A stretch of DNA of 64,000 nucleotides from Brevundimonas diminuta. GTDB taxonomy: Bacteria; Pseudomonadota; Alphaproteobacteria; Caulobacterales; Caulobacteraceae. Every line of letters begins with the position of its first letter. Position 1 is the first letter of the stretch. Position numbers and translations under genes: made by a program. A model generated the notes under the pieces. It ran no database searches and was not told the DNA's origin. It worked only from the letters and a program-made list of their open reading frames with translations. Shown piece by piece: positions 33,332 through 60,821 of this stretch. The stretch is taken from contig NZ_CP073063.1 in assembly GCF_022654015.1 (NCBI RefSeq), positions 1,550,001-1,614,000 on the forward strand. The letters are read 5' to 3'.

Positions 33332-34252
33332 TTGAAGCTGACTGCCCGCCTTTTCAACGCTGACTGCCTCGTCGCCATGACGAAGCTGGCCGACGAGTCC
33401 GTGGACCTGATCGCTGTGGACCTGCCGTATGGAGTGTCGGTCGAGGCGTGGGATAAGATCATCCCGATGGACAAGATGTTCGGAGAGTTCCGCCGCATCC
33501 TCTCCCCCACTGGCAACATCGTCATGACGGCACAAGGCCGGTTCTCGGCCGCGCTGATCGCGGCGGCTCCTGACCTCTACTGCTACTCGATGATCTGGGC
33601 GAAGACGCGCAAGACGCAGCATCTGCATAAAGACTATCGCGTCCTCGCCCAGCATGAGGATGTCTTGGTCTTTGCCAAGGGCGGGATGGGGAACAACGCC
33701 AAGGTCCACCCGACGTATAACCCGCAGGGTCTGACTGAATTGGACAAGCCGGTCACGTCCCGAAACAGCCTTAACAAGGATACGTTCTACAAGTTGAGCG
33801 GGCCGTCCGCGCAGCGGGGTCGCAATCAAACCCACACGAACTGGCCGACGAGCATCCTGTTCTTCCCGAGTGTCGGCGCAAAGGAAAAGGTGAAGGGCAA
33901 GGGCAATGCGCCCCAGACCCAAAAGCCCGTCGCCCTTATGGACTACTTGATCCGCACCTTTTCGAACGAAGGCGACACGGTGCTGGATTGCACCATGGGG
34001 AGCGGCACGACGGGCGTCGCCGCCCTGCAAGCTGGCCGTCACTTCATCGGCATTGAGATCAGCCCTCGGTTCTTCGAGAACACGGAAGCGCGCCTTCGTG
34101 CTGCTGCACCTGATGCAGACTTTGACATCCGCGTTGGCGCGGCCCCTATCGAGCGTTCCACCACGTCGTTGTTGGCCGAAGTGATGGAGCGCAAGCGCGC
34201 CGAATATCGCGCATTCAAGGAGCGCGAGAAGGCGGCGAAGACCGCCGCCTAA
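33332..34252 (+). CDS. Orphan DNA adenine-type methyltransferase
   Basis: A 306-residue site-specific methyltransferase of the beta (N6-adenine/N4-cytosine) arrangement: catalytic motif IV DLPYG first (about residue 30), then a target-recognition region, then the SAM motif LDCTMGSGTTGVAA (about 235) and QTQKPVALMDYLI. The TTG start at 33332 follows GGAG with seven-base spacing; an upstream ATG at 33254 has no ribosome site. No restriction enzyme lies next to it. It probably protects phage DNA or regulates. Its stop overlaps the TerL stop by four bases, tail to tail. Confidence 0.88.
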   Translation: MKLTARLFNADCLVAMTKLADESVDLIAVDLPYGVSVEAWDKIIPMDKMFGEFRRILSPTGNIVMTAQGRFSAALIAAAPDLYCYSMIWAKTRKTQHLHKDYRVLAQHEDVLVFAKGGMGNNAKVHPTYNPQGLTELDKPVTSRNSLNKDTFYKLSGPSAQRGRNQTHTNWPTSILFFPSVGAKEKVKGKGNAPQTQKPVALMDYLIRTFSNEGDTVLDCTMGSGTTGVAALQAGRHFIGIEISPRFFENTEARLRAAAPDADFDIRVGAAPIERSTTSLLAEVMERKRAEYRAFKEREKAAKTAA

Positions 34253-35976
34253 CGCATCCGTCTTCCACGGGCGCGGACCCTGCCCTTATTCAATAGAGAG
34301 CCGACATTCGTCCCGGCGAAGAACTTCTTTTCGAACTCCCGGTCCAGTCTGTCGAGGTGCTGACGCTCGTGCTTTTCCTCATCCGCGTTGAGGTATGGAC
34401 GCCAGTATTCGGCGGCTTGGGCCAGCACGTCGATGCGGTCGTCATGGCGAAGGGCGCCGCGAACGACGGTCATGTTGGTCATTTGGAACAGGCCCCGGCG
34501 TAGGCTGTCTGCCTTGAGGTCTTCACGCACCACGGCAAGGTCGATGACCAGACGGTGTTGCTTCATGACCGGCTCAAGCGCGCCGACGATCCGCTTCTCC
34601 TTCATGCTGGAAACCTTGTGGCCTTCCAGCTTGCAGGGGTGCTTGCGGGCGAGGATCGGCGACAGGAGTTGTCGGAACATGCCGTCGCCGAAGTTGTCTT
34701 CGACCATTACCAGATTGACCTTCTCGTCCCGTGCGATCTCGGCCAGCTTGGTCAGGGTCTCGGTAGACGTGCCGTCCACGAACCCGCCCCACTTCCGAAT
34801 GTAGATGCGTGTCCCGAGGAACTTGGTGACGACGTAGGCCGTCTCATCCTTGCCGGAACCGGAGGGGTCGATGTGCATCACCGAGCCGGTGAAGTCGGAC
34901 CAAAGCTCCGAGACATTGAACGGCCGGTAGAGACGGTCGCCTGACCATCCGACGTTCTCGACATCCTTGATCTGGTATTCGGGCGCGGAGGTCCACGCCA
35001 TGGAGACCGGCCCGCGTCGTGGGTCAACGTCCATGACGATGAGGTCGGAGGTCTTAAGCGGGTAGCGTTCCGCGTCGCTCAACGTCACGTCGAGCATCAT
35101 CTGAAGCATGAACTCGGCGGCGGTGCCGTCCAGTTCGTTTTCGATCAGCTTGGCGTCGGTGAAGCGGTCGGGATCGGTCGGCGCCCCTCCGAGCTTCGAC
35201 AGGCCGACAGGCTCACAAAGCTTGGGGTCACGCTCAATGTCAGCGAGCAGCATCGGAGCCAGTGCGGCCCCATAGTTCGCCAGCTTGTCGGCGAGTGGAT
35301 AGCGGGCGGTCCAGATGCGGACGGTGTAGCCGCGCTGCGGAAGGCCGTTGTAAATCGACTCTGCCGTTTGAGGGGTGCCGAGGACGATGATCTCGGACGT
35401 GTCGAGCGGCTTGATGATGTTCGAGAACTCGCCGAACAGGTGCCGGAGCTTGTCGCGCTGATCCTCGGTCCATGAGTTTCGTGGGTTCTCAACGTCGTCG
35501 CCGATGATGATGTCGGCGCGGTTGCCCGGTAGCTGGCCCGTGATGCCGATGCATTTCACGGAGGGCTGTTTGTCGGCGCCCTTGCCGCCCACGTCGAACG
35601 CGAGCGTCGAGGATTTTTGGTCGCGGCCGGGACGCAGCGAACCCCACAGCTTGTCACCCGCCTCGTGGTAGATGATGCCTTTGATGAGTGAGGCGTTGTC
35701 AGCCGCGCCTGTCTCGCCAGCAGAGACGATTAGGACTGTCTTGTTGTTGTCCTTCCAAAGACGCCAGACGACGTAGGCGCATGTCAGGAAGGACTTGCCG
35801 ATACCGCGAAGGGCTTGGATGGCCCGGCGGGTGGAGCCGCTTTCGAGGAAGCGGGCGATGTCCTCTTGGATGCGCGTCGGCTTGGGGAGGCCGAGAACGT
35901 GTTTCCAGACGTAGCGGACGAACGCGATGAAGGACTGCCGAAGAACGTCGGCGAGCGTCAGATTGGATGAGATCAA
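34249..35976 (-). CDS. Terminase large subunit (T7 gp19-like)
   Basis: A 575-residue packaging ATPase-nuclease, close to T7 gp19 in length (586). The ATPase domain shows Walker A-like ALRGIGKSFL (about residue 55) and Walker B IIIGDDVENPRNS (about 165), with LGTPQ as coupling motif. The C-terminal nuclease has HIDPSGSGKDETAY (about 370, first Asp) and VEDNFGDGMF with DDRIDVLAQA (about 520) as likely metal ligands. It is the last gene of the late operon, as in T7. Confidence 0.93.
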   Translation of the reverse strand: MISSNLTLADVLRQSFIAFVRYVWKHVLGLPKPTRIQEDIARFLESGSTRRAIQALRGIGKSFLTCAYVVWRLWKDNNKTVLIVSAGETGAADNASLIKGIIYHEAGDKLWGSLRPGRDQKSSTLAFDVGGKGADKQPSVKCIGITGQLPGNRADIIIGDDVENPRNSWTEDQRDKLRHLFGEFSNIIKPLDTSEIIVLGTPQTAESIYNGLPQRGYTVRIWTARYPLADKLANYGAALAPMLLADIERDPKLCEPVGLSKLGGAPTDPDRFTDAKLIENELDGTAAEFMLQMMLDVTLSDAERYPLKTSDLIVMDVDPRRGPVSMAWTSAPEYQIKDVENVGWSGDRLYRPFNVSELWSDFTGSVMHIDPSGSGKDETAYVVTKFLGTRIYIRKWGGFVDGTSTETLTKLAEIARDEKVNLVMVEDNFGDGMFRQLLSPILARKHPCKLEGHKVSSMKEKRIVGALEPVMKQHRLVIDLAVVREDLKADSLRRGLFQMTNMTVVRGALRHDDRIDVLAQAAEYWRPYLNADEEKHERQHLDRLDREFEKKFFAGTNVGSLLNKGRVRARGRRMR

Positions 35977-36043
35977 ACAAGGGGTGCGCCGCCCAGCCGC
36001 CCGCCGGTGAAGGCGAGCGGCGGCAAGCGAGGGGTCTTGGGTT

Positions 36044-36340
36044 TTAGTTCGGGGTCATGCCCGAAAGAATCTCGGCGTCGAGGTCGAGATCGGTCAGTTG
36101 AGCCGCGAGGTCTTCGACGACCTTGGAGCCAGCCGGTGCGCTGACGCCGTTGTCCTTGAGGAACTTTAGGGCCTGACTGATTAGCTGTGGCGAGATCGCA
36201 TACGACGGGTCGTTCGGATTCATCTCTGCGCGGAGGTTGGCACGGTCCAGTTCGTTCGACAGCAGCAGCGCGACGAGGCGGTGCATGGTGTCGAGTTCGC
36301 CTTCCGACGCGCGGACGTGGGTTTTGATTTGATCGATCAT
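36044..36340 (-). CDS. Terminase small subunit (T7 gp18-like)
   Basis: A 98-residue protein with SPQLISQALKFLKDNGVSAP, a segment common in small terminase subunits of T7-like phages. It is immediately upstream of TerL and overlaps the holin-like gene by four bases. It should recognise the phage DNA and stimulate TerL. Position and motif support the call. Confidence 0.75.
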   Translation of the reverse strand: MIDQIKTHVRASEGELDTMHRLVALLLSNELDRANLRAEMNPNDPSYAISPQLISQALKFLKDNGVSAPAGSKVVEDLAAQLTDLDLDAEILSGMTPN

Positions 36341-36567
36341 GGCTTCACCAGATCGACAAGGAAACCGGCCAGACCGCCGATTGCTGCTGCGGCGCCCATG
36401 ACCCAGAACTTGGCGTTCTCAAGCGAGCGCGTTCGGGTTTCGAGCGTGTCGTGCCGACCCTGCAAGGTCTCCATGAACCTGATGTAGGTGGCAAGCTGGC
36501 CTTTGATTTCCCCGAGGATCAGCACCAAGGCTGGGTCGGAGTTCGATGTATTTGGAGTGGGGTCCAT
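36337..36567 (-). CDS. Small membrane protein in the holin position (gp17.5-like)
   Basis: A 76-residue protein: charged N-terminus with a coiled coil (about residues 20-52) and one hydrophobic C-terminal helix (FWVMGAAAAIGGLAGFLVDLV). In T7 the holin gene lies in exactly this place, between the fibre and TerS. The topology also fits a class II holin. Direct evidence for pore formation is absent. It overlaps TerS by ATGA. Confidence 0.6.
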   Translation of the reverse strand: MDPTPNTSNSDPALVLILGEIKGQLATYIRFMETLQGRHDTLETRTRSLENAKFWVMGAAAAIGGLAGFLVDLVKP

Positions 36568-36594
36568 TAGACCTTTCGATTGTGGGTATGAGGG

Positions 36595-37059
36595 TTAGAT
36601 CGCGTCGCCAGCCGTGTATTGGAAGTCGAGCGTGAGTTCGTAGCTGCGACCGCCAACGACGACCGAACAGTAGGCTTGCCCGAAGGCTTGGTAGGTGAAG
36701 CCCGTGGGCTGATAGGCTGGGCCTTCGAAAGTTGCCGAAGCACCGCTCCCGTAAGCATCCCCGCCCCACGAGTATGAGGTGGGGGCGAGATAGGGCGTCA
36801 CCGAAATTCCGAACGTGATCCGGTCGTATTGCTGACGGTTCCAGTCGCCGAACCCCATCTGCACCTGCTCGTAGCTGGTGATGATGAGGCGGACGGTGCG
36901 GGAGGATTTGCCCCAGAAATCGTTCGGCATCATCAGCGACCCGGACTGGATGCCAGCCAAATCCCGCACACGCTGATCGGTTAGCGAGAGTTCGCCGGTG
37001 ATCCCGAGTTCGGCTTTGATCTGGTCGATGCTGATTGGCCCGGAAGTTGGGAGAGTCAT
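36595..37059 (-). CDS. Tail-associated protein with LPTSGPIS motif
   Basis: A 154-residue protein beginning MTLPTSGPISIDQIKAELG, a module seen at the start of many tail-tip or fibre-associated proteins, followed by MMPNDFWGK and a beta-rich C-terminal domain with many Tyr/Gly. It probably assembles with the S74 fibre encoded directly upstream: its start touches the fibre stop. Role as accessory receptor-binding protein is inferred. Confidence 0.6.
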   Translation of the reverse strand: MTLPTSGPISIDQIKAELGITGELSLTDQRVRDLAGIQSGSLMMPNDFWGKSSRTVRLIITSYEQVQMGFGDWNRQQYDRITFGISVTPYLAPTSYSWGGDAYGSGASATFEGPAYQPTGFTYQAFGQAYCSVVVGGRSYELTLDFQYTAGDAI

Positions 37060-39857
37060 TAGACCCTCCCTTCCAGCCGACCGATCCGGGCATCGGCGTC
37101 TTTCAAAGCCTCGACAAGCAAGGCCACGACGGGACCGTATTGGACACCCTTGATACCGTCCGCGTCCTCGGTGACGAGGGTCGGCAGAACGGTCTCAAGG
37201 TCTTGGGCGATGAAGCCCAGCGAGGCCATGCCCGACGCGATCCAATCAAACGTCACGCCTTCAAGGGCGCGGACCTTGGACATGGCATCGGTGATCGGAG
37301 CGATGTTTGTCTTAAGGCGCCTATCGGATTCCCCGACGACGGTGTTGGCGCGGACTTGTGCCGAGCAATAGAAGTTCTTGCCGTTGTAGACGCGAACCCA
37401 GTCATTGTCGGACATGTGGAAGCCGCCGCCGTGCTGTTCCCAATAGATGCCCGAGCCGGTGCCTCTGACACGAAACCAGTGTCCGAACCCCGAGTAGACC
37501 TGTGAGGTCGCATAGAAGCTCTGGGTATAGACGTTGCCATTCTCGGCATTGATGCTGCCGCCCATCGTGGCTTCGTTGTTTTCCAGATTGATCGTCAAAG
37601 GCCAGCGGCCATTGACGGTCTCCCATGCCTCCGAGTCGTTGCCAGAGCCACGCAGGAAATGCATGACGTTGGAGTTGACGTGGATCATCGCCGAACGGCT
37701 GTCGGTATCCTTGAAGTAGATGGTCGGCGAACCGCCTCTGATCTTGAGGTAGTTTCCCAGAGTTGAAAGCCCGCTGGTCGCTTCAAGGAAGCCGCCATTG
37801 TCGATGGACACGACCCTCTGATCGTCCGCGTTTCGGAACTCGTGGCCGCCGCGCGAGCGGTAATACGACCGTCCATTGCTGGCGAAGTAGAAGCGTTCGT
37901 TTCCGTCTGTGGTGGTGTTCCAGCCATCGCAGTAGCGACGCATCAGGCCGTTGGCATCGAGGTTTTTTGAGGTCCAGAACTCGTAGATCGTCGCGCCGGT
38001 AGACCACCCGCCGAAGCCCCACTTCCCATCTTCGAACATGCCGAAGTAGGTTCCGTAGGCGCCCGGACGGTGGAACTTCATCCACGCGCCATAGCCGCCG
38101 CCCGACCCCCGAACTTCGAGCGTAGCGAATGCCGCCGCGTCTTGGGGGTTCTGGGTCGAAGAAAACGTCAGTTGCTTTGAAAGGGTCTGCTCGGCGCCGC
38201 CCTCTGTCAAAACGTCGCCGTTCTGTTTGCCGGTCTCGCTGTAGGCGCGAACGTGGTTGTTCGTTCCCCGTGCGGTAAGGTGAAGAGAGGTCGTGGATTG
38301 GAGATCGAAGCGACCGCCAGCCCATGCCAGACGGGCGTGATAGTCAGTCGTGCTATCGGCAGACAGGTCAATGTATGGGCCGTAGCCGTTGCTGTCGTTT
38401 CGTAGTTCGACCCAACCACGGTTCACGTCGGTTCGTGATCCGCTGTCGGCCGGGCCAACACGCAGTTGATCGCCCGCAATATGAGCGTTCGTCGCGATGT
38501 AGAGGCCACCGCTCAAACCATAAAACCAACCGTTCTGGTCGAACCGCCAATAGCGTTCCGAGCCAGCCGCGCCCGTCTTGAGAACCGAATGGTTGCCGTC
38601 TGGGTAAAGAAGGCCGGTATTGAATTTCAGGTTGGTCACCGTCGCCGCTGAACCGCTGGCGATCTTCCCGTTGAGGGCGTCCAGCAGACCGTTAACATCG
38701 GTGATGTTGTGCAGGTGAGCCGTTGCCGGGTAGGTCGAAGGCTTGCCAGTGATCGTGTCCCAAGCATGGACGTGACCCGCCGCCGCCCGGCCATCAAGCG
38801 CAGCCTGTAGGCCGCTGACGTTGGCGATGTCGGAAGGGAAGATCGTCGGACGATCCGTGATGGTCGTCCAAGCATGGACGTGACCAGTTAGCGACCGCGC
38901 GTCGAGGGCCGCTTGCAAGTTCGCAACATCAGCGATGACATGGCCATGGCCGACGTTCGATTTGCCGTCCAAGGCTGATTGCAGCCCCGCGACGTTGACG
39001 ATGTTCGAGGGGAAGAACGACGGCTTGTCCGCGATTACGGACCAAACCGGCGTCACGTCGCCTTGCTCGATGTAGTTGGCTTCGACATTCTTGGCGCCCG
39101 ATCCGCTGTAGACCCAGCGGCGACCGTCCATGGTCGCGACCAGTGTTCCGGGTCGGATGCCGTTCTGTTGGACGGTCGTCAGATTGGTGATGCCGCCAGT
39201 CGAGACGACGGGCGTTTGACCGACGAGAACCGGGATGCGCGCCGGGTCGATCATGCCTTCCAGTCGGGACGAGGCGAGCGTGTCCGATTTCTTGTCGAAT
39301 AGGTTCGGATCGAACGTCGCGGCCAAAGCTGCTGACGCTGCTGCATCCAGAGCGTCTTGAGCCACAAGGGCGGCGTTGTCGGCTACCTCTTCGGCAAGCT
39401 GCTCGACGATCTCGCGATCTTCCGATGTGGACTGCCCGGAGCCTTGAGCGAGTTCGGCCCAATAGCGCGCGTTGGCCTCATGGTTGCCAGCGTGATTGCG
39501 ATGTTCCTGCGCGAGGTTTCGCGCATCGACCGCCGCGCCGCGAGCCGCTTCCGAAAGGATGCGCTGGGCGTCGGAGCGGTCGGCGTGACCCTTCGCCAGA
39601 TCGCGCGCCAGTTCGGCCGCGACCTTGGCAACGGAGGCTTGCGCCGCCGGGCCGGAGGTCATGTCGCTGAACGATGCGGGCGAAGGAACGAGGATTTCAC
39701 GGCCGCCCAAATCCACGAAGGGATAGCGGCCGTCATTGTTGGGTCCACCATCGGCGGACCCACCCAGCCAAGCAGTGACGGCTTTCGTCTGCTGCTCTGA
39801 TTTTCCGATGAGGTCTTCAATCTGCTGGGCGAGAGTGGTGATCGTCAGCCCGCTCAT
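37059..39857 (-). CDS. Tail fibre with S74 intramolecular chaperone
   Basis: A 932-residue fibre. The N-terminal ~200 residues are helical (many Ala/Glu/Gln), then short repeats built on SNVxGLQAALDGK-like units (about 260-400), then a beta-rich shaft. The C-terminus has SDRRLKTNIAPITDAMSKV and LGFIAQDLETVLP, the peptidase_S74/intramolecular chaperone that trims itself after trimer folding (catalytic Ser in the ESDRRLK start). It lies after the T7-type fibre with one 75-residue gene between, so the virion may carry two fibres. Confidence 0.9.
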   Translation of the reverse strand: MSGLTITTLAQQIEDLIGKSEQQTKAVTAWLGGSADGGPNNDGRYPFVDLGGREILVPSPASFSDMTSGPAAQASVAKVAAELARDLAKGHADRSDAQRILSEAARGAAVDARNLAQEHRNHAGNHEANARYWAELAQGSGQSTSEDREIVEQLAEEVADNAALVAQDALDAAASAALAATFDPNLFDKKSDTLASSRLEGMIDPARIPVLVGQTPVVSTGGITNLTTVQQNGIRPGTLVATMDGRRWVYSGSGAKNVEANYIEQGDVTPVWSVIADKPSFFPSNIVNVAGLQSALDGKSNVGHGHVIADVANLQAALDARSLTGHVHAWTTITDRPTIFPSDIANVSGLQAALDGRAAAGHVHAWDTITGKPSTYPATAHLHNITDVNGLLDALNGKIASGSAATVTNLKFNTGLLYPDGNHSVLKTGAAGSERYWRFDQNGWFYGLSGGLYIATNAHIAGDQLRVGPADSGSRTDVNRGWVELRNDSNGYGPYIDLSADSTTDYHARLAWAGGRFDLQSTTSLHLTARGTNNHVRAYSETGKQNGDVLTEGGAEQTLSKQLTFSSTQNPQDAAAFATLEVRGSGGGYGAWMKFHRPGAYGTYFGMFEDGKWGFGGWSTGATIYEFWTSKNLDANGLMRRYCDGWNTTTDGNERFYFASNGRSYYRSRGGHEFRNADDQRVVSIDNGGFLEATSGLSTLGNYLKIRGGSPTIYFKDTDSRSAMIHVNSNVMHFLRGSGNDSEAWETVNGRWPLTINLENNEATMGGSINAENGNVYTQSFYATSQVYSGFGHWFRVRGTGSGIYWEQHGGGFHMSDNDWVRVYNGKNFYCSAQVRANTVVGESDRRLKTNIAPITDAMSKVRALEGVTFDWIASGMASLGFIAQDLETVLPTLVTEDADGIKGVQYGPVVALLVEALKDADARIGRLEGRV

Positions 39858-40163: not shown

Positions 40164-42716
40164 TCATGCCGTGATGATGGGTTGGTCGCCGCCGCCACCG
40201 CCGCCGCCCGGATCGTAGGGGTCGTAGCCGCCACCGCCGCCACCACCTGACGAACCGCCACCTGATCCGACGCCGCCGCCGGAACCAGTGCCGCCGCCGA
40301 GTGTCGAGGTGTTGTTCTTCATCTCTGTGACCTTGCCGTAGCGGGCGGTCACAGTCTGGGTGGACATGTTCGAGGTGAAGTAGACTTGGACGTAGTAGTG
40401 CCAGTTCCCGCCTTCACCCGGACGGTCGAGGAACTTCATGGGAAGGGAGCCTTGCCATGTGTCGTTCGCCATGCCGGAGCCGTTCAGTTGAACGGTCTGA
40501 AGGACCGTGCCGCCGTCGTTTCCGCGCGAGCGAATAAGCTGCACGACGGCCACGAATGATCCGCCCGCGTTGTGGGTGAAAGTCCCATAGGCGTTAAAGT
40601 CGATGTCGATTGGGCTGTCCGCCTTTTCGACGCCGATCCAAAGGCCATGAATACGGGTCGGGGTGGTGTTGTTGAGCGTGATCGTCGCCGCGTTGTAGGC
40701 GACTTCGGTATTGCTGACGGTGTTGTTGACCAGTCGGGTGTGATTGATCGAGCCACTGACGAGAAGGTCGCCGTAGATTTCGACGTTCGAGTTGAAGCGG
40801 ACCCGGCCGTTGACCAGCGACATGATCTTGACCGGCGCACCCCCGCCCGGAGCCACGAACGACATCTCATCGGCGACAAAGGCGAGTGTCCCATAGGAGC
40901 CGTTGTTGTTCGCCGTGATGCCGGTGATGTGGCCGTTGGAGTTGAGGGCGATGCTCCACCGGGCGTTCAGGCCGTTCGTCACCTGCGTCAGGGTGGTGAT
41001 CGACGCGGTGTTGCCGCCTACCGTGTTCTGCACATTCTGGATGGTCTGTGAGAGCGCACTGTCGGCGTTGATCCGAGCAGTGCGCTCATCGACCACAGAA
41101 GCTGAGACATTGCCGATGGATGTGTCGATCCCCGACAGACGGGTGCCAAGCGTCCAGCCCGGCCCGACTTCGACCCGATTGAGGTCCAGCGTGAAGACCG
41201 ACTGGTTGTTGCGGAAGGCGCCGAGGACGGCGAACTGCTGGGCGATGGCGCCGTCAGCGTTAGCCCGTGCGGTCGCCTCGTTCTGGATGGCTGTCGAGTT
41301 AGTCCCGACCTGCACGGCCAGAGATTGCCGGGCTTGAGCTTCTGCCTGATCGGCTGCAACACGAGCGTTCGTTTCGGTCAGGACCGCCGCTGCGATGTCA
41401 CCGGCGATCTTCGTCGCCAGAGCCGTCCGCTGCGCCGCTTCTGCTGACACCGCGTTGGTTCGGGCCGTGACTTCTGTTGCGATAGCGGCGGTGTTGTCGT
41501 CAGTTTTCGCCCCGACGCTATCAATGCGTTGAGACAAAGATTGGTCTTGGCTGGCCCGCGTGGTCGCCTCGCTCGTGACGAGGGCCTGTGCATTAGTCCC
41601 GGCGGTCGCCACCATCTGGTTCAGGCGTTGGGTGAAGGACTCCGTGGGACCGACGAGAACCTTGTTGAGGTCCAGCAGGAAGGCGGTGTTGTTGGCGTTC
41701 TTGGCGCCCAGCAACGAGAGGGTTTGAGCGAGCGCACCATCCGCGTTTGATCGGGCGGTCTGCTCGGCGGTGATGCTGGCGTCGAAACCATTTGCCCGAG
41801 CTACAAGAAGGTCGATGCGGTCAGCTTGCGCTGACACGGCATCGGCTCGCGCCGTTGCTTCGGAGATGATCTTCGCCGCGTTGTCGTTGGCCTTGACCGT
41901 GATCGCCGAGAGGCGTTGGCCAAGGCTCTCTGTGCCGGAGACGCGGACGGTGTTGAGGTCCAGCACGAAGGCGTTGTTCGCAGCGTTCCGTGCCCCGATG
42001 AGCGCGAGGGTCGTTGCCAGAGCCGTATCGCCAGCGACGCGCTCTTGCGCCTCGTTCTGGATGACGGTGGCAATCCCTGTCCCGTCTTCGAAGTTGACGA
42101 GGGAGTCCACCAGATCGGTGATCGTATCGACGCGGAGTTCGAGGCCCGTCGTCCGGGCTGTGGTGTTGGCCACGATGCCGTCGAGGGTGTCGGTTCGGAA
42201 CGCTTGATCGGCGAGGGCAAATGATTGGTCGAGGATGCGTTCGGCCGAGAGGTCGATGCTGGCCAGTGCGTCGCGGAAACGGTTGAGCGCACCGTCTCCC
42301 ATTTCCGAGGTCAGGATCAGTTCGTCCATGATGGCGTCAGGCGTGGTGACGACGCCGAGGTGATCGCCAAGCCGAACCTGCGCCCGGTCGAGTGAGCCGG
42401 TGTAGAGGTCGTCCAGTTCCTGAAGCCGGTAGAGGTTCTGAAGGTTTGCCCGGTTCAGTTCTTCAGCGGTCAGGTTCGCCCCGTTTTTGAAGTCCACGAG
42501 GGCCGTGCTGATCGGCGTCTCACGACGGATTTGCAGGACGCTGTTTTCGGCCGGAGGCTGACGAAGGCGGATGCGGCTGTCAGAGACCCATTCGAAGAAC
42601 GGGATGGAGCCGTTGAGCGTGACCCGAATGTGGGTCCGGTCGAGGAAGGGGACTGCAAGATCGAACTCTTGCTGGCCTCCCGTCACGATGTATTGGGCGC
42701 GGGTCTGGTGAGACAT
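40164..42716 (-). CDS. T7-type tail fibre (gp17-like)
   Basis: An 850-residue fibre. Residues 1-130 match the T7 tail-fibre attachment domain: QYIVTGGQQEFDLAVPFLDRTHIRV, then ANLTAEELNRANLQNLYRLQELDDL. A long helical shaft follows with at least four repeats carrying LDLNxVxVGxTExLxQRL, each bracketed by Ala/Thr-rich coiled coil. A beta domain and a very Gly-rich C-terminal tail (GGGSSGGGG) end the protein. T7 gp17 has 553 residues, so the shaft is greatly extended. Confidence 0.88.
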   Translation of the reverse strand: MSHQTRAQYIVTGGQQEFDLAVPFLDRTHIRVTLNGSIPFFEWVSDSRIRLRQPPAENSVLQIRRETPISTALVDFKNGANLTAEELNRANLQNLYRLQELDDLYTGSLDRAQVRLGDHLGVVTTPDAIMDELILTSEMGDGALNRFRDALASIDLSAERILDQSFALADQAFRTDTLDGIVANTTARTTGLELRVDTITDLVDSLVNFEDGTGIATVIQNEAQERVAGDTALATTLALIGARNAANNAFVLDLNTVRVSGTESLGQRLSAITVKANDNAAKIISEATARADAVSAQADRIDLLVARANGFDASITAEQTARSNADGALAQTLSLLGAKNANNTAFLLDLNKVLVGPTESFTQRLNQMVATAGTNAQALVTSEATTRASQDQSLSQRIDSVGAKTDDNTAAIATEVTARTNAVSAEAAQRTALATKIAGDIAAAVLTETNARVAADQAEAQARQSLAVQVGTNSTAIQNEATARANADGAIAQQFAVLGAFRNNQSVFTLDLNRVEVGPGWTLGTRLSGIDTSIGNVSASVVDERTARINADSALSQTIQNVQNTVGGNTASITTLTQVTNGLNARWSIALNSNGHITGITANNNGSYGTLAFVADEMSFVAPGGGAPVKIMSLVNGRVRFNSNVEIYGDLLVSGSINHTRLVNNTVSNTEVAYNAATITLNNTTPTRIHGLWIGVEKADSPIDIDFNAYGTFTHNAGGSFVAVVQLIRSRGNDGGTVLQTVQLNGSGMANDTWQGSLPMKFLDRPGEGGNWHYYVQVYFTSNMSTQTVTARYGKVTEMKNNTSTLGGGTGSGGGVGSGGGSSGGGGGGGYDPYDPGGGGGGGDQPIITA

Positions 42717-46722: not shown

Positions 46723-46731
46723 TCAGTCCTT

Positions 46732-49922: not shown

Positions 49923-49975
49923 GAGTTGCTTGCTGCGCCCCCGTGATGGCATGAAACCGGAAACGGGAGGGGCTT

Positions 49976-50404: not shown

Positions 50405-50428
50405 GTCTGACCCCGAAAGGTCAGACTC
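50403..50428. terminator. Shared hairpin spanning both convergent stop codons
   Basis: GAGTCTGACC and GGTCAGACTC (10 bp, CCGAAA loop). The moron stop overlaps the left arm and the tail-tube stop lies in the right arm. No T-run follows on either strand. Confidence 0.6.
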
Positions 50429-53308: not shown

Positions 53309-54262
53309 TTAGGTCGGGGCGCCGGTGCGGAGTTCGACCGCATCGGTGGCGCGCAGGACGTTCGTGCCGCTCATGTAGCGACCGACGATCAGGTGGCCTT
53401 GCTTGCTGATCTGCTCTTCGTGCTGGATCGACACGTCTTGCACCTGTGCGGTGACGAGAGCGTCCGGGGTCCAGACGACGCCGACAGTCTTCGAATAGTC
53501 GCCCTGATAGCGAGCCAGCACGCCGGGGGTGGCGGATTGGTTGACGCCGAACGGAGCGAGGTTCGACTTCATGATCTGAACGCCGTCGATGGTCGTCAGA
53601 GCCATGTTGCGAACGTCAGCCGAACCGCCGTTGTAGTCGCGGTTCAGGTTCTTGTCGGACTGCTTGAGGGCATACCATTGCGGAGTCGCGACCATGCCGT
53701 AGATCGGCTTGGTGTCCACATCGACGTTCTTCAGGTCCATGACCTTCTTCGCTTCCGAGAAAGCGTCGAACAGCTTCGTCACGTCCGTCAGGAGCGTGGA
53801 GCCGGTGACGTTGCCGCCGCCTTGGCCCAGCTTGCCCGCGTCGCGAGCGGCCTTGATGAGGGCGCGGATTGCGTTGGCGTCGAAGTGACGGGCGAGGAAG
53901 CCACCGATTTCGTCAGCGTAGGCCGAGCGAACTTCGTAGTGGTTCAGAGCTTCGTCGATGTCGGCGATGAAGACCGACGAGACGAGCTTGTCGTCCGGGG
54001 TCACGACGATCTCGTCGTGTGCGATCTGGTCGCCGGTGATCTCGACGCCGGGGGTGTGGTAGCCGCCGGTCGCCTGACCCATGACCGGGTAGCGATACGA
54101 CTTGCCGCCGTTCAGATTCACGATGCGGTGCAGACCGCGCATGATCGTCTTGGCTTCGTAGGTGGAGAGGACTTCGCCCGCGAACAGGTCGAGGAAGAGG
54201 TCGAGATTGCCAGCGGCGCCGCCGGTCTTGAAACCGGGACGCGAGGGGATGGAGTTAGCCAT
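53309..54262 (-). CDS. Major capsid protein (gp10-like)
   Basis: A 317-residue HK97-fold capsid protein (T7 gp10A, 345). It begins MANSIPSRPGFKTGGAAGNLDLFL, then FAGEVLSTYEAKTIMRGLHRIVNL and YPVMGQATGGYHTPGVEI (in pieces), the conserved E-loop region, and ends EEQISKQGHLIVGRYMSGTNVLRATDAVEL. The ATG at 54262 follows AGGAG. It has a leader of about 250 bases with several stems, consistent with high expression from a dedicated promoter. Confidence 0.94.
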   Translation of the reverse strand: MANSIPSRPGFKTGGAAGNLDLFLDLFAGEVLSTYEAKTIMRGLHRIVNLNGGKSYRYPVMGQATGGYHTPGVEITGDQIAHDEIVVTPDDKLVSSVFIADIDEALNHYEVRSAYADEIGGFLARHFDANAIRALIKAARDAGKLGQGGGNVTGSTLLTDVTKLFDAFSEAKKVMDLKNVDVDTKPIYGMVATPQWYALKQSDKNLNRDYNGGSADVRNMALTTIDGVQIMKSNLAPFGVNQSATPGVLARYQGDYSKTVGVVWTPDALVTAQVQDVSIQHEEQISKQGHLIVGRYMSGTNVLRATDAVELRTGAPT

Positions 54263-54512
54263 TAGGCTCCTTGATTGAGAGAGAGTTTTTGGCTCCCGTC
54301 GATCAATCGGAGTCCGCTGGCGCATGAGGTTGTGCGGTCGAAACCGGCCTCTTCGCAGCCGGATGTTTCCGCTTTGATTTGGGAGAAAGAGTTAGGCCGG
54401 GCTTTCACCGGCCGCCCGCCCGAAGGCGGTCAGTTCCCTGTGTGCGCGGGGAACTGTGCGGCCCCGCCAAGCAAGTCCCGATAGGACGAGCGGGTGTGGT
54501 CTTACGGTTGGA
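54263..54512. other. Structured 250-bp leader before the capsid gene
   Basis: There is no gene here. Several stems are visible, for example CAGTTCCC/GGGGAACTG near 54430-54456, GGCCGG/CCGGCC near 54393-54411 and a GCCCGCC/GGCGGTC-like pair. T7 has the phi10 promoter and an RNase III site in the same place, so phage promoter and mRNA-processing signals are likely. No promoter sequence can be named. Confidence 0.4.
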
Positions 54513-55358
54513 TTACAGCAGGGAACCCGCTGCGTTCGAACGCCACAGTTTCTGGGCCACGTCGTTTCGATACGCCGGGTCCGTCTTGTAGCGAGGGTCT
54601 TGGATAGCGGCTGTCATTTCCGCCTTGGAGCGGAAGACATCGCCAGATGCCGGGCTTGCTTCGGCCTCGATCAGAGAGCCTTCGGCAGGGCGCGCGGCGT
54701 TGAACTTCGACATCAGCCATTCGACACCCTGACGGGCGGTCGCTTGGCTTTCGACGAGAGTGTTGTAGCTGTCCTGTTCCGCAGGGGTCAGGCCGGTCTT
54801 GGCCCAATCAATCGCGGCGTTGAACTGATCCTCACCGCCAGCGGCGGCGTAGGCGTTCGAAAACTGCTCACGGGCGAGGGCTTCAAGCCCAGCCAGATAG
54901 TTGTCCACGATGCCTTGCGGGACGCCGAGATCGACAATCTTCTGGATGTCGTCGGCTCCGGGTTGGCCTCGCGATTCTTCATAGACCTTGGCGAAGCCTT
55001 CGAACGCCGATGTGATCGGGTTCGGTGCGTCTTCGGCCGAGGTCTCGCCTTCGGTCTGTTCGATCTTCAGGCTGTCGGTCTTGGCCGGGTCTTCGGCTTT
55101 CCCGCGCTGCTTGGCTTCAAGCTCGGCGTAGGATTTGGCCATGTCTTCCCAGCGGGCCTCGCCCTTGTCGGCGTCCCAGAATTTCTCGGGGACGTGTGCA
55201 GGGCGTTCAGGTTTCGAAGGGGTTTCCGGCTCGGCCTTGTTGAGCGATTGAGCGTAGGTGGCGGGGTCAACGCCCGCCGGGAAGGCCGAAGCCGGAAGGT
55301 TGGAATAGTCGTTCGGAGTTTCCGAAGCGGTCTCATTGACCGGGAGTTCGAGGCTCAT
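54513..55358 (-). CDS. Capsid assembly scaffolding protein (gp9-like)
   Basis: A 281-residue acidic protein (T7 gp9, 307). The N-terminal third is disordered (Glu/Pro/Thr-rich), the middle has PEKFWDADKGEARWEDMAKSYAELE, and the C-terminus has MTAAIQDPRYKTDPAYRNDVAQKL, both typical of gp9-like scaffolds. It is coupled to the portal gene by a four-base overlap. Confidence 0.92.
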   Translation of the reverse strand: MSLELPVNETASETPNDYSNLPASAFPAGVDPATYAQSLNKAEPETPSKPERPAHVPEKFWDADKGEARWEDMAKSYAELEAKQRGKAEDPAKTDSLKIEQTEGETSAEDAPNPITSAFEGFAKVYEESRGQPGADDIQKIVDLGVPQGIVDNYLAGLEALAREQFSNAYAAAGGEDQFNAAIDWAKTGLTPAEQDSYNTLVESQATARQGVEWLMSKFNAARPAEGSLIEAEASPASGDVFRSKAEMTAAIQDPRYKTDPAYRNDVAQKLWRSNAAGSLL

Positions 55359-56875
55359 TCAGTTCCTTGGTTAGGGTCTTGCGACGCGGCTTTCATCGCG
55401 GCGTCCATGAAGCCCGGTGCAGCGGCTTGAGTGGCTTGCGCCATCATCGCCTGTTGCTGCTCGGCTTCGATTTGTTCTGGTGATTTCAGAAGGCTTTGCA
55501 GGTCTGTCACGCCATGCTCGACGCCCAGCTTGTTCATCAGCGCGGTCGTATCGACCTTGGCGATGAACTCGGCTTGGCCCAGCAATCCCATGACATCCGA
55601 AGCCCACGTCCGAACGCGGTTCACTTCGGCTGCGGCACCCAGCGCGGCGAGGCCGGTGACGACCTTCGGCTTAATCCCAGCCGGTAGGCTCGGGATCAGC
55701 TTCTCGCGCTCTGCGATGTAGAGGTAGCGGGTCGCGACGGCGTATTGCAGTTCGGCCGACAGCACCGAGTAGGTGCCGCCCAGCGTGTTCTCCAATTCCT
55801 CTGACGACATCCGAATCTCTTCGGCCGTCACGCGCTCGGCGTTGCGGAACTGCTGGATCAGGAATGCCTTGGCGACGCGCGCTTCGATTGCGGACGCCAG
55901 ACGCTCGGCGATCACAAAGTCTGCCTGTTTGTCGAGGCTCAAGACCGTGATGTCACCGGCGTCGCCGGTGTGGAAGGAGCCGCGCTCCGAACCCACAACC
56001 ACATCGAGGTCGATGACCGAGTTGGGTTGGACGAAGAACTTAATGTCCGACGAGATCGCGGTGTAGGCGATCATCGACTCGTTCAGTTCCTCAAGGGCCA
56101 GAAGGTCGCCGATGTATTCTGTGACGTGCGAGCGACCGTAGTCGTTGGCCGGGATCGCCAGCCAGCGCAGAGCCAGCCAGCCCGACTTTTCAATCGGGGT
56201 CTCGCTCTCCGAACCGGGGACGCGCTTGCCGTTGATCTCTTGGTATTGGGCGTGGTTCTCGCCGCGCTTCTCGATGACCGTGTAGACATCGACCGTCTGG
56301 TCTTGCTTGTCCGGGTCGAGGGTCAGCCCGACAGCCGTCCGGGTCTCAACCGACAGGTTCGAGACGTGGATGCTTTCGCGAGCGATGATGAGGGTCGGGA
56401 CGCCACGGCTATCGCGCTTCACCACATACTGGTCGAGGCGATAGATGCGCGGCGTATCCTTCAGCGGAATGTGCAGGAGGACATTGCCAGCGATCACGAG
56501 GTGGCGAAGCACTTCGGCCAACACAGCGCGGGCGCGGCGGTCATCCAGAAGGTTGTTCGCCGACTGTGCGAACTGCGCCAGTTGGACATCGACCGCGTTC
56601 TTTTCCTCGCCGGTGAACTGCGCCACGGCGGCGTCCACGTTCAGGCGGAAGAACCCGACGTTGGTCGGGAACAGCGTCATCAGGAGCCGAGCCGAAAGGC
56701 TGCGGACGCCATCGGCGCCGACGCTCTGATAGGGTTGGGTCGGGGTGTAGTGTTCGTTCTGACCCTCAAGTGGGATCAGACCGGGGATCGTCACGCGCGA
56801 TGCGGTGCGAGCGTTCTCCAAGACGGTCGAACGGGATGCAGACAGCGCGCTGAAACGCGCTGCTGCGGTTTTCAT
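55355..56875 (-). CDS. Portal protein (gp8-like head-tail connector)
   Basis: A 506-residue portal (T7 gp8, 536). Family segments include the N-terminal YTPTQPYQSVGADGVRSLSARLLMTLFPT (in pieces), GNVLLHIPLKDTPRIYRLDQYVVKRD, SHVTEYIGDLLALEELNES and AERVTAEEIRMSSEELENTLGGTYSVLSAE. It forms the dodecameric ring for packaging and ejection. Confidence 0.95.
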   Translation of the reverse strand: MKTAAARFSALSASRSTVLENARTASRVTIPGLIPLEGQNEHYTPTQPYQSVGADGVRSLSARLLMTLFPTNVGFFRLNVDAAVAQFTGEEKNAVDVQLAQFAQSANNLLDDRRARAVLAEVLRHLVIAGNVLLHIPLKDTPRIYRLDQYVVKRDSRGVPTLIIARESIHVSNLSVETRTAVGLTLDPDKQDQTVDVYTVIEKRGENHAQYQEINGKRVPGSESETPIEKSGWLALRWLAIPANDYGRSHVTEYIGDLLALEELNESMIAYTAISSDIKFFVQPNSVIDLDVVVGSERGSFHTGDAGDITVLSLDKQADFVIAERLASAIEARVAKAFLIQQFRNAERVTAEEIRMSSEELENTLGGTYSVLSAELQYAVATRYLYIAEREKLIPSLPAGIKPKVVTGLAALGAAAEVNRVRTWASDVMGLLGQAEFIAKVDTTALMNKLGVEHGVTDLQSLLKSPEQIEAEQQQAMMAQATQAAAPGFMDAAMKAASQDPNQGTE

Positions 56876-56881: not shown

Positions 56882-57193
56882 TTATTTCGCTTTCGAAAGG
56901 GCTTTGCGGGCGAGCGATCCGACTGTGCCGGGCAGCTTGGCCAAAAGAGTCATGCCGGGATCAACCGTGGGCGATCCGCCACCTGTCGAAGGCGCGGGGA
57001 TGGTCGGCGAACGCGGCGTCGTCGGCGCGACCGACGCTGATCCCGATGCCCCACGGGGGATCGTCAGCGAGCGGACGCCGCCAGCACGGGCGCGTTCAAT
57101 CGCGGGCAGACCGTCGAGGTAAGGGTTGGTGATGATGGCCGGTTCTTTGTCAGCCGGTGCGGCGACAACCTTCGGCTTTTTGACGAGGCACAT
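56882..57193 (-). CDS. Small phage protein before the portal
   Basis: A 103-residue protein: MCLVKKPKVVAAPADKEPAIITNPYLDGL, a Pro/Ser/Thr-rich middle and a basic helical end. The MCxxKKPK start is a feature of small ejected or tail-assembly proteins (T7 gp6.7 or gp7.3 position). Exact role is not known. It lies six bases before the portal start. Confidence 0.65.
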   Translation of the reverse strand: MCLVKKPKVVAAPADKEPAIITNPYLDGLPAIERARAGGVRSLTIPRGASGSASVAPTTPRSPTIPAPSTGGGSPTVDPGMTLLAKLPGTVGSLARKALSKAK

Positions 57194-57195
57194 GG

Positions 57196-57408
57196 TCAGA
57201 CCTCCTTGCGTTTGAGGGAGGCTTCAAACTCCCGGCGCATCTGGAGGGCGACGGCGCGTTGGCCCGCCTTGAACATGATGGTGTCGAGGGTGTCGCCAGC
57301 CCGTGGCTCCTGCTCGGGGAACTTGAAGTCGAGGTATTCAAGGAACTCGGCGACGTTGGTGGGGAACGGTCGGGTCTGCGCGTAGGCAGAGGGCTTCGGT
57401 CGGCTCAT
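57196..57408 (-). CDS. Small hypothetical phage protein
   Basis: A 70-residue protein beginning MSRPKPSAYAQTRPFPTNVAEFLEYLDFKFPE, with a charged helical C-terminus (FKAGQRAVALQMRREFEASLKRKEV). It lies two bases upstream of the 56882 gene. No family is recognised; a packaged or early virion role is possible. Confidence 0.6.
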   Translation of the reverse strand: MSRPKPSAYAQTRPFPTNVAEFLEYLDFKFPEQEPRAGDTLDTIMFKAGQRAVALQMRREFEASLKRKEV

Positions 57409-57457
57409 GCGAGGCCCTTTCGAAATGAGGTTGGGGAGCGTTCGCGGTAAATACGCG

Positions 57458-57808
57458 ATGTTGAAATGTGAGGGCCGTTGGGCCGAGAGGATCGAAGAAC
57501 TGCTGGCAGCGAGTGACGCATCCAGAGGGTTTGCTACGCCACGGCCCCGTAAAGAGTTGGCCAAGGCGGAAGGCGCATGTCCTGTCTGCGGGACAGCGTT
57601 TCAGATCATCCGATCATCGAAGAAATTCTGCTCGCAGCTTTGTCGTGAAAAGGCTCGATACCGAGCGGTGCGAGCAGAGGTGAAGCCGACGCCCGTGCAC
57701 TGCGGCCAATGTCAGGGGGCTATCACCGTCAACAAGGCGGGTCGTCCGCCGAAATATTGCGGGGCCACTTGCCGGGCAAAGGCGTGGAAAAAATCACGGG
57801 TCCGATAA
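57458..57808 (+). CDS. Double zinc-ribbon protein on the opposite strand
   Basis: A 116-residue protein with two Cys clusters: CPVCGTAF with KKFCSQLCREKARYR, then HCGQCQGAI with PPKYCGATCRAKAWKK. Each is a C-x-x-C...C-x-x-x-C zinc ribbon followed by basic residues, suggesting nucleic-acid binding. Along with the moron at 49976 it is one of two plus-strand genes in the late region. Its end overlaps the convergent 57729 gene by 80 bases. The start is uncertain; ATG 57458 (MLKCEGRWAERIEELL) is the preferred one. Confidence 0.65.
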   Translation: MLKCEGRWAERIEELLAASDASRGFATPRPRKELAKAEGACPVCGTAFQIIRSSKKFCSQLCREKARYRAVRAEVKPTPVHCGQCQGAITVNKAGRPPKYCGATCRAKAWKKSRVR

Positions 57809-58046
57809 CCGTATCGTCGCCCCACATCCTGAATGCGAAGGCGCCGAAGTCGTCGGCGATAGAGATTACTGTCCCGCCGGTGGGTTGAAGGCCCATGACG
57901 TAGAGGTCATTCCATTCATGCTCGATCTCTTGCGATAGCAGCCAAGCCGACGCTTCGTCCGCCAAGTCAGTCGGCATGAGGAAGTGCGAGACCGGCGACT
58001 GCAACAGCCGCACAAATCCGACGATCACACCGACATCCGGGATCAA
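57729..58046 (-). CDS. Hypothetical early phage protein
   Basis: A 105-residue alpha/beta protein (FLMPTDLADEASAWLLSQEIEHEWNDLYV, then TVISIADDFGAFAFRMWGDD). It is coupled by ATGA to the upstream 58043 gene, so it is probably real despite its 80-base antisense overlap with the zinc-ribbon gene. No family is recognised. Confidence 0.55.
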   Translation of the reverse strand: MIPDVGVIVGFVRLLQSPVSHFLMPTDLADEASAWLLSQEIEHEWNDLYVMGLQPTGGTVISIADDFGAFAFRMWGDDTVIGPVIFSTPLPGKWPRNISADDPPC

Positions 58047-58333
58047 ACGAAACGGCGCAGTTCATTTTCCGCATAGTCGCGGATCGCCTGAACGTGGACG
58101 GTATGGTCTGCTTCGGCATCCGACATCATGCGGAGCGAGCGCGTGACCTCTTCGTGTGGATTGATCCCGGCGCCCAACGCCATAGCGACAGCGGCGAGGA
58201 ACGTGGCGCGAATCTGATCCGCCGGGTCGAGGTTCGACACACGGTCCAGAACGAGGAAGGCGGGTTCACGCAGGACGGCGACGGTCGATGCGCTTCGAAC
58301 TCGGTCGCCGAGATTAGGGTCTGAAAAAATCAT
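58043..58333 (-). CDS. Hypothetical early phage protein
   Basis: A 96-residue, mostly helical protein (DPADQIRATFLAAVAMALGAGINPHEEVTRSLRMM, then HTVHVQAIRDYAENEL). It is the first gene after the RNA polymerase, coupled to 57729. In T7 the class II genes (DNA metabolism) would lie here; nothing in the sequence suggests such a role. Confidence 0.55.
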   Translation of the reverse strand: MIFSDPNLGDRVRSASTVAVLREPAFLVLDRVSNLDPADQIRATFLAAVAMALGAGINPHEEVTRSLRMMSDAEADHTVHVQAIRDYAENELRRFV

Positions 58334-58388
58334 GGGATGTTTCGGTCTCTCAATAGGGAGTTAGGATGCATTCATTGGCTCAAGGCAT

Positions 58389-60821
58389 TTAGTGGAAAAG
58401 GTAATCCGACCGGCGGACCTCGTTGATGTCGAAGTCGCCCATTGCCGGAAGTGGCGGGAGCTTGTCGGCGTAAGCTTCCGGTAGCTGTGCGATCAGTTCG
58501 TCACGCAGCATGGCCAGCCTGTCCACGCTGTATTGATCGGCGAACGTCTCTCGCAGAATCGAGCGCAGTTCGAAGACACGACAGGCGTGAACCCCGAAAC
58601 TGTCATGGACCACGGACAGGTCATAGATGCCCGCGTCATGACAGGCGTTGGCGACGGCCATGAGGTGGGCCGCATCCATGGAGTGGATGAAGTTCGGGCT
58701 GATACCGTTGACCTGACGCTGACCGTCGATGCCCGGCGCACTGTGCTGAAGGTTGATCTGAAGCCGCTTGTTCTTGTGAAAGACCGTCATCCGGTCCTTG
58801 CGACGGCGGGGATAGGTTTGCAGGACCGGAAGGCCGGTCGGCGTCGTCCACCAAATCGGCTGACCAGCGGCGGTCATCACCTTGGCCGCTTCGCGCAGCC
58901 ACGCCATGGCGGTCGAGGCGGCGACTACCGTGTCCGAGATCGCATCCCAGAGGGTGTAGGAAAGGTAGAGCGACGAGGCGTAGTTGTCGGCCGTCCCAAG
59001 GTGGGGCTGACCGTTGGCGTCCAGTTCGCGGAGCGTCTGATAGATCATGTCCGTCATGCCGAACCGGGTCGCGCTGTAGGTGAAGGTCATGCAGGGACGC
59101 TTGGCGACCTTGCGCGTGACCAGTCCGCCTCGCCATGCGACTGCCCTTTCGTCGGCATCCTGATCGACGAGGGCTTGAGCCTTCGCCGCCACGTCCGAAT
59201 AGATGTCCTGCGGCCGGTCATCCGGCACAAGGTTGACGGCCTTCGCCCCTACAGGATCGCGGAGCATCGCACTAAAATGCTGCAAACCGCTGTTCGAACC
59301 GTCGAGGCTGACCGGCAGGTGGCTGATGAAGTCGGCGCCCTCGCGGATGTAGCCCGCCCATTCGATGCAAGCGGCCAGAGCCATGAAGGGGCTGTCCGCT
59401 TCGGCCCAGAAGCGGGCGCCGTCGAGAGGGTTGTTCGCGCTGTCCAGAACCAGATGCTCGTTCGCCCAGAACCAAGCCATGCGTTCGTCGTGCGAGACCT
59501 TATCGACCCCGAACAATCCGGCGATGTGGATGGCGAGCGCACCCGCTCCGGCGTCGGTGATCGGATGGCCTTCGGCGAAGGTCAGCAGAGCCTTGCAGAT
59601 GTCGTCGCCCTGCGGATTGGGACCGGCGGACGGGATCGGATAGACGCGGCCTCGGAAGTCCACGCTGTGCGGGAAGAAGATCGCCTCTTCGTCCGCGAAC
59701 TTTTCCGCGACCCATAGACGCTGACTGATCGCCAGTCGCTTCGATAGGTTGGCCGAGTTCAGGTCGTGGATGTCGGCGGCCTCGCGCTTCCAGCGGGCTT
59801 TCACCTGTTCGTCGTGAGCGAACTCGGGCGGGCGAGGCGGGAGATCGAGCGGTTGTCGATTGGGTAGACCACCCAAAACGCCGCCCCCGTCCCAAACCTC
59901 ACGGATGACATCGAGGATCGGCCGGTTGATTCGCCAAGCCGTCGATTGGATCGCGTTCACGGCCGAGTAAACGGCGGACATTTCGACTTTGCGGAGATGT
60001 TCGTGATAGGCGGGGTTCGTCTGCTTCACGAGGCGCGCACCCGGCGTCTTGGTGACGTAGCCGCCACGGAACGGCGTGGTCCATCGGCGCGGCGGGACGA
60101 TCATCGGAAGATGCATCGGCTCCAACAGTTCGCAGCGGGCGTGCTGTTGTTCGAGCCAACGGTGAACGGCCTCGGTCGGTCGAATGACCTTCGTGCCGCG
60201 CGCGATGCTCTCGATAACGAACAGGCCGGTCACATCGCAGAACAGTTCGAGGGCCTTGGCCCCCGCGCGAACGCGCTGTTGCAGGGTGAACGTGCGGTCC
60301 ACCCCGTGTTCGATCATGATGTCCTTGATGGCCTTGCGCTTCTTGCTCGTGACCAGAGAGGAAGCGTTCTGCTGGGACTTGAGCAGCCCCTTGAAGACAT
60401 CCTTCCGGTTCTGGCGAAGGCCGTCCATCTGGATGTGTTCGATAATGGCGTTGGCGACCGCGATGCAGGTGGCGGTGAACTTCATGCCGCTTGCGGCGGC
60501 GTCGAGTGCGACCCGCCCTGTCAGATAAGCGGCCTCGTCGGCTCCGATCTGCGACAGGATCAGGTGGGCGTCCACGCCGCGCGCCGCGCCGCCATGATCC
60601 ACGCGCTCGCAAAACTCACGGATCGCAGCGGCGGTCGGCTCGGTCGCCAGCTTGAGAAGTTGACGGCCGGGTGGAAGGTCCGCCTCTTCGTCAGCGGCGC
60701 GGGTCTCGTTGCGCCACGGCATGGGTCGGCTCGCACGATAGCGGCTTGCGCCGAGCGCGCGTGACTCGTTCTCAAGGTCGATCTGACGAGCGACCTTCTG
60801 TCGATATGTTTCGGTGTTCAC
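58389..60821 (-). CDS. Single-subunit phage RNA polymerase (T7-like)
   Basis: An 810-residue polymerase (T7 RNAP, 883). Catalytic motifs align with T7: SVDFRGRVYPIP, SLDGSNSGLQHFSAMLRD (motif A Asp), AKRPCMTFTYSATRFGM (motif B Lys and Tyr; T7 has YGS, here YSA) and VVHDSFGVH (motif C His-Asp). The region matching the T7 specificity loop is shorter, and the N-terminal domain is reduced, so the promoter should differ from T7's. The GTG start lies in a palindrome and has no clear ribosome site. It should transcribe the late operon. Confidence 0.96.
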   Translation of the reverse strand: MNTETYRQKVARQIDLENESRALGASRYRASRPMPWRNETRAADEEADLPPGRQLLKLATEPTAAAIREFCERVDHGGAARGVDAHLILSQIGADEAAYLTGRVALDAAASGMKFTATCIAVANAIIEHIQMDGLRQNRKDVFKGLLKSQQNASSLVTSKKRKAIKDIMIEHGVDRTFTLQQRVRAGAKALELFCDVTGLFVIESIARGTKVIRPTEAVHRWLEQQHARCELLEPMHLPMIVPPRRWTTPFRGGYVTKTPGARLVKQTNPAYHEHLRKVEMSAVYSAVNAIQSTAWRINRPILDVIREVWDGGGVLGGLPNRQPLDLPPRPPEFAHDEQVKARWKREAADIHDLNSANLSKRLAISQRLWVAEKFADEEAIFFPHSVDFRGRVYPIPSAGPNPQGDDICKALLTFAEGHPITDAGAGALAIHIAGLFGVDKVSHDERMAWFWANEHLVLDSANNPLDGARFWAEADSPFMALAACIEWAGYIREGADFISHLPVSLDGSNSGLQHFSAMLRDPVGAKAVNLVPDDRPQDIYSDVAAKAQALVDQDADERAVAWRGGLVTRKVAKRPCMTFTYSATRFGMTDMIYQTLRELDANGQPHLGTADNYASSLYLSYTLWDAISDTVVAASTAMAWLREAAKVMTAAGQPIWWTTPTGLPVLQTYPRRRKDRMTVFHKNKRLQINLQHSAPGIDGQRQVNGISPNFIHSMDAAHLMAVANACHDAGIYDLSVVHDSFGVHACRVFELRSILRETFADQYSVDRLAMLRDELIAQLPEAYADKLPPLPAMGDFDINEVRRSDYLFH

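Follow-up and report, generated by a model that had tools for sequence, protein, structure and literature searches.

T7-like phages are generally held to encode a replisome of their own, in one linked block of genes. The subject of this study is W, an integrated T7-like element without such a block, which lies in a 64-kb stretch of the Brevundimonas diminuta chromosome (genome G000, contig C1, positions 1550001-1614000; genome size 3.2 Mb). This whole stretch is called the window below, and coordinates refer to it unless stated otherwise. Caulobacter phage S2B (MN857473) shares with W the late gene order, the single-subunit RNA polymerase (RNAP, 57% identity), TerL, the integrase with its neighbor gp57, and the position of the integrase near RNAP, but has genes for an exonuclease, a DNA polymerase, a primase-helicase, a lysozyme, RusA, and a DUF2815 protein between RNAP and portal. 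Mycobacterium phage jiawei (OR464703) resembles W in gene layout and has an RNAP of 53% identity, but contains a full replication module. The temperate-type T7-like Pseudomonas phage LUZ100 also has an integrase upstream of RNAP and T7-type late genes and, unlike W, a complete T7-type replication set, as given in part of its published description (PMC10134795). The RNAP-bearing Autographiviridae of Caulobacter and Brevundimonas come from the same host group; in the portion of their survey used here, DNA primase, helicase, and polymerase are tabulated for all three RNAP-bearing phage clusters, unlike W (PMC11053796). In open-licence papers on temperate T7-like phages, Autographiviridae, and Brevundimonas or Caulobacteraceae phages, no description of the lineage to which W belongs was found.

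The late genes of W all lie on the minus strand. RNAP (58389-60821; phrog_414, E=7.8e-233) is followed by the major capsid, scaffold, and portal genes (53309-56875; phrog_267, phrog_1052, and phrog_449), two tail tubular-type proteins (50421-53215; phrog_457 and phrog_446), four open reading frames (ORFs) for internal virion and core proteins identified by PHROG and S2B comparison (42793-49952; the 736-aa product has a peptidase domain), two fibre or tail genes with PHROG tail matches (37059-39857 and 40164-42716), TerS (36044-36340; phrog_891), and TerL (34249-35976; phrog_38, 57% identical to that of S2B). PHROG matches thus bear out, position by position, the late genes listed in the initial annotation of this locus; the holin position that it had added is unsupported, as the candidate frame (36419-37093) has neither a strongly hydrophobic segment nor a family match. 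Of the features typical of Autographiviridae, W therefore has the single-subunit RNAP and the T7-order late operon from portal to TerL, while its own T7-type DNA polymerase and primase-helicase were not found in the window or in the host genome.

Between portal and RNAP there are only four small minus-strand ORFs (58043-58333, 57729-58046, 57196-57564, and 56882-57193), as the initial annotation had read this interval. No T7-type exonuclease, polymerase, primase-helicase, single-stranded DNA-binding protein (SSB), RusA, or lysozyme was found there, and no replication protein of S2B or LUZ100 was detected in the window by tblastn at E<=1e-4. Three of the four ORFs match S2B gp52, gp31, and gp30; since these genes flank the replication block in S2B, the part missing from W is the replication block itself. 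A CCTATTGA-like site (58345-58360, minus strand), whose position is kept in several members of the group, lies between RNAP and the next gene and may be the one phage promoter from which the late operon is transcribed. The conserved intergenic stretch before the capsid gene (54326-54512, minus strand) contains a CCGGTGAAAGCCCGG-like motif and is recognisable also in S2B and jiawei.

The gap is shared by the near relatives of W. Five RNAP loci were found in four of the 131 genomes of the genus, and the module is absent from all five, including a diverged second prophage of the same genome, G000b. In the family sample (RNAP in 5 of 390 genomes), the only locus outside the genus, G227, is an S2B-like prophage with the full module. 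The order and class samples (RNAP in 6 of 398 and 4 of 385 genomes) yielded six new loci; G720, G623, and G1014 have replication genes beside RNAP, and G689, G904, and G852 could not be scored for the module. Among the ten loci on viral contigs drawn by the W RNAP, the seven with at least 62% identity all span the interval from RNAP to portal, and none has the module. The three distant ones (27-29% identity) comprise L022, with a primase-helicase and an exonuclease, L023, where an SSB, an endonuclease, and the first part of a primase-helicase are present, and L024, which stops just after RNAP. The RNAP of locus L021, one of the seven, is the same as that of Brevundimonas sp. ASV9 (NZ_JAELUF010000012.1), whose RNAP locus is 62% identical to that of W. 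Neither PF00476 nor an S2B primase-helicase was detected in any of the 15 viral records searched. The comparison with relatives that the initial annotation proposed as a refuting test thus came out in support of its reading: the polymerase gap is common to the near relatives, and only distant ones have the module, namely the phages S2B and jiawei and the prophages G227, G720, G623, and G1014. Because the 12 module-less rows of a 19-row RNAP tree fall on one side of one branch (support 82/93, 78% of bootstrap trees), a single loss of the module in this lineage is the simplest reading, with moderate support.

W is an integrating, temperate-type prophage. In four relatives with an empty site (G002, G009, G011, and G008), homology to the window breaks off at 20637 and restarts at 62725, which places the ends of W at about 20638 and 62724 and gives a length of 42.1 kb. 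The short core GAAAGGA(A/G)GT is present at both ends, as GAAAGGAAGT on the left (20628-20637) and GAAAGGAGGT on the right (62725-62734). The left end contains a tyrosine integrase (21238-22125, minus strand; PF00589, 42.5% identical to the S2B integrase), in which R-H-R-H-Y residues, which we take to be the tyrosine integrase motif, were seen by eye, and the adjoining gp57 homolog (22122-22613, minus strand; 42% identity to S2B gp57). At the other end, beside the right attachment site, lies a large serine recombinase gene (60870-62582, minus strand; PF07508 and PF13408, with a resolvase-like N-terminus by eye), so that W carries two site-specific recombinases. A related serine recombinase (28-32% identity) adjoins the tyrosine integrase in G036 and V39239, and in G000b and V12812 a second, larger tyrosine-type recombinase was seen by eye beside it. 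The order in W, from RNAP to TerL, the early genes, and the integrase, is the one obtained when the S2B genome is opened at a point between its integrase and its RNAP. The extent given initially (34249-60821) was therefore too short: it missed the left 13.6 kb, with the tyrosine integrase, a helix-turn-helix (HTH) regulator, an ArdC gene, and the c12 gene discussed below, as well as the serine recombinase. W is presumably able to excise and to form infectious particles.

The second prophage, G000b (G000:C1 about 2065026-2107711; loci L006, L007, and L029), is 42.7 kb long, with ends set by two relatives, and its right end overlaps a tRNA-Gln gene. Taken together, these loci form a Brevundimonas lineage of module-less, integrating T7-like prophages with a conserved gap.

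Replication in this lineage probably depends on genes of the early region. An ArdC-type anti-restriction gene (28600-30117, minus strand; PF08401 and PF18818) is present in all early regions examined, although the copies of V11477, V12812, and L090 are shortened or interrupted. In 12 of 12 elements, the slot behind ArdC holds exactly one of three unrelated genes; these elements were drawn by RNAP, TerL, or ArdC searches and are kin, so the count is suggestive and is not a statistical test. The c12 family fills the slot in seven of them (W, where c12 lies at 26594-27295 on the minus strand, G036, G039, V39239, V14687_29, V45004, and V12812), c106 in three (V13922, V13484, and V2627), and c124 in two (G000b and V12229). 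The V12812 form is 23% identical, lies on the opposite strand, and was assigned to the c12 family via alignment, not by tblastn; one L140 protein matches both this form and W c12. ArdC and a V12812-type c12 are found also in the element of ASV9, for which contig G094:C733 is the probable early region. The product of c106 looks like a primase-helicase-like protein, and c124 encodes a P-loop-like protein. The slot is exchanged between close genomes: c12 is only 49% identical between W and V39239, against 93-100% for the compared late proteins and 97% for ArdC.

As in iteron-type origins, a repeat array lies beside the candidate initiator gene. The array (26427-26574) comprises five copies that deviate from CCCTCTATTA/TAATAGAGGG by no more than one mismatch, two of them overlapping in one palindrome, and the 64-kb window contains no further match of this kind. 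In eight c12 elements, the early region contains four to six CCCTCTATTA matches, again with no more than one mismatch and in part overlapping as palindromes, all of which fall within about 200 nt 3' of c12; shuffled sequences gave means of 0.1-0.4 and no more than 3 in a single shuffle. A single match is present in V12812, and ten other regions tested have none. More generally, an inverted pair starts 9-25 nt after the stop codon in all 15 c12-family genes, a set that includes ASV9, a G087 copy with an in-frame stop, and four distant members from other Brevundimonas elements (L140-L143). Its sequence varies by subfamily (CCCTCTATTA, TGTCGAGTCTTAAGC, GTGCAATCTTACGTAA, TCTCTAG, and TTACGTAT types), and its loop is 15-22 nt long (28 in L143). 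Loops of 15-22 nt are unlike those of intrinsic terminators. The pair scores at least 10 in 13 of 15 genes and 7-8 in L143 and L140. Among 600 windows drawn at random from these loci, some of which may overlap the c12 arrays, 204 score at least 7, 85 at least 8, 11 at least 10, and one at least 13; in an earlier draw of 300, four score at least 13. Related repeats accompany other genes of the slot as well: V13922 has four copies of about 26 nt near its c106, and V12229 two copies of 56 nt near its c124. The 470 nt that precede c106 in V13484 yielded none, and only short ones were found near G000b c124. Among the distant c12 relatives, one in L140 lies beside a serine resolvase/invertase gene and the L143 element has an integrase, which is compatible with a mobile replicon and is no proof of it.

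On its 5' side, c12 is preceded by a structured leader RNA (27290-27444, minus strand), a 155-nt region that folds well (z = -5.08). In all eight c12 elements, the loop of the first hairpin can pair with the loop of a terminator-like hairpin (GTGGAAG/CTTCCAC, GTGCAAG/CTTGCAC, or GAGGAAG/CTTCCTC). All 56 cells of this helix (100%) are paired, with two pairs changed on both sides, where cells count sequences, not events, and the structure was drawn up after viewing the same eight sequences. Support is weaker for the remaining helices of the proposed structure (75-99% paired). Over the structure as a whole, the paired-cell share, the covariation score, and the number of double-change cells are above shuffles (reached by 1, 3, and 7 of 500). 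Control of a rep gene by loop-loop pairing has precedent in plasmids.

We suggest that W is a complete temperate-type T7-like phage copied by the host replisome, which is likely, and that this copying is started by an exchangeable plasmid-like replicon of the early region, here c12; the combined reading seems to us somewhat the more probable one. Binding of the C12 protein to the repeat array just 3' of the c12 stop codon would bring in the host's DnaB and Pol III, and the leader RNA would limit C12 synthesis; the phage RNAP would then transcribe the late operon, and TerS/TerL would package the replicated product. A bolder version, which we offer tentatively and hold to be slightly less than an even prospect, is that c12 is the founding member of a new replication-initiator family with a cognate 3' inverted-repeat array and, in the main T7-like subgroup, a leader under loop-loop control, and that the lineage swapped its whole T7 replisome for interchangeable plasmid-type replicons based on c12, c106, or c124, making replication a swappable compatibility module. 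The difference between c12 in W and c124 in G000b suggests why two module-less prophages can coexist in one cell.

Several observations weigh against a role of c12 as initiator. C12 has no family match and no clear fold match, and its predicted fold (pLDDT 80) is uninformative, so that no known Rep or winged-helix initiator domain is recognised, a negative that is compatible with an undetected one. The early region of W contains no match to the DnaA box TTWTNCACA, a further element of iteron-type origins. The inverted pair of W scores 10, and sixteen other gene ends of W score up to 9; the case for the repeats is built on their recurring position and spacing, not on the score in W alone. Finally, the number of covarying pairs and the pair types of the whole leader are not above shuffles (191 and 366 of 500).

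The lack of an initiator domain also favors a different role for the slot, as a defence, counter-defence, or regulatory cassette of a host-replicated element, in which C12 would bind DNA to regulate the operon that encodes it, and replication would have another start, such as phage RNAP-primed transcripts. The neighborhood fits such a cassette. Besides ArdC, it contains a candidate defence protein, PDC-S54 (23339-24586, plus strand; PADLOC E=3e-118), a SIR2_2-like protein, probably cargo (27477-28568, minus strand; PF13289, E=1.2e-4, just under the cut-off), and a DNA methyltransferase (33254-34252, plus strand; PF01555), and an AIPR-like gene was seen by eye in this region of some related elements. 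Yet c106 is primase-helicase-like, its relatives in other phages lie beside a RusA-like gene or upstream of terminase, and the array of four to six matches sits behind c12, whereas operators are usually upstream of the gene. We consider this explanation rather unlikely, though a serious one. The SIR2-like gene precedes c12 also in L090 (47% identity). The early region further contains an HNH/endonuclease VII-like protein (24798-25436, minus strand; phrog_1035, E=6.6e-13), a DUF892 protein, listed as cargo (25595-26197, plus strand; PF05974), and the HTH regulator, a probable repressor (31897-32235, minus strand; PF01381) present in 9 of 15 distinct early regions.

That W encodes no recognised replication protein would be expected also if it had all late genes and borrowed its replication machinery from a co-infecting phage, as the initial annotation had considered under the name of a helper-dependent form. 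No positive evidence for a helper emerged: the host genome contains no match to an S2B-type primase-helicase and only one to PF00476 (310750-311889), and the module is found in none of the five RNAP prophages of the 131 genus genomes. The single polymerase A loci of G000, G036, G039, and G094 are distant from the prophages and presumably represent the host PolA. Satellites, moreover, usually keep replication and drop structural genes. Dependence on a helper is thus improbable, and host replication is preferred to it.

The late genes of W are under purifying selection, with dN/dS (nonsynonymous to synonymous divergence) well below 1. In the comparison with the near relative L017, dN and dS are 0.015 and 0.258 for portal, 0.018 and 0.242 for tail protein B, 0.066 and 0.536 for RNAP, and 0.060 and 0.268 for capsid; in the comparisons with G000b, G036, and G039, dS reaches high values (mostly 0.6-1.8) and exceeds dN in every gene compared. 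A few stops occur in the tblastn stretches of relatives. One shortens the G000b portal by three residues at its end, and another shortens L017 tail protein A by about a dozen; in the stretches that match internal virion protein 14 there is one in G036 and there are two in G039, perhaps where the match runs into the overlapping upstream gene. Decayed relatives do exist. V2627 lacks scaffold and capsid, and G088 retains only fragments (L145, G088:C1:557000-576999: tail, TerL, ArdC, and c12); an open c106 frame lies on a different G088 contig. In W, however, the frames are intact, as noted initially against simple decay, the ends are clean at a size of 42 kb, and the gap is common to elements whose late proteins share only about 50-80% identity. 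That W is in decay or the product of a recent deletion is therefore strongly disfavored, and of the two alternatives first proposed, dependence on host replication, probably started by the early-region cassette, is retained over a deleted form. A domesticated particle packaging host DNA in the manner of a gene-transfer agent, to which late genes without a replication module might point, would be expected at a fixed chromosomal locus without an integrase and is very improbable for W, which has an integrase, attachment sites with empty sites in relatives, retained ArdC and HTH regulator genes, a second element at a different site of the same genome, and a patchy presence (4 of 131 genomes).

Since this lineage keeps T7-like transcription and morphogenesis without the linked replisome block, the two are separable, which raises the question of how host replication fills a T7-type virion, and makes c12 a compact candidate for a new replication initiator. 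The systems for comparison are iteron plasmids and plasmids with a rep gene controlled by a leader RNA. In addition to its lack of a recognisable Rep domain and of a DnaA box nearby, c12 differs from iteron plasmids in residing in an integrated phage; it resembles these plasmids in the combination of a single candidate initiator gene, adjacent repeats, and a structured leader with loop-loop pairing.
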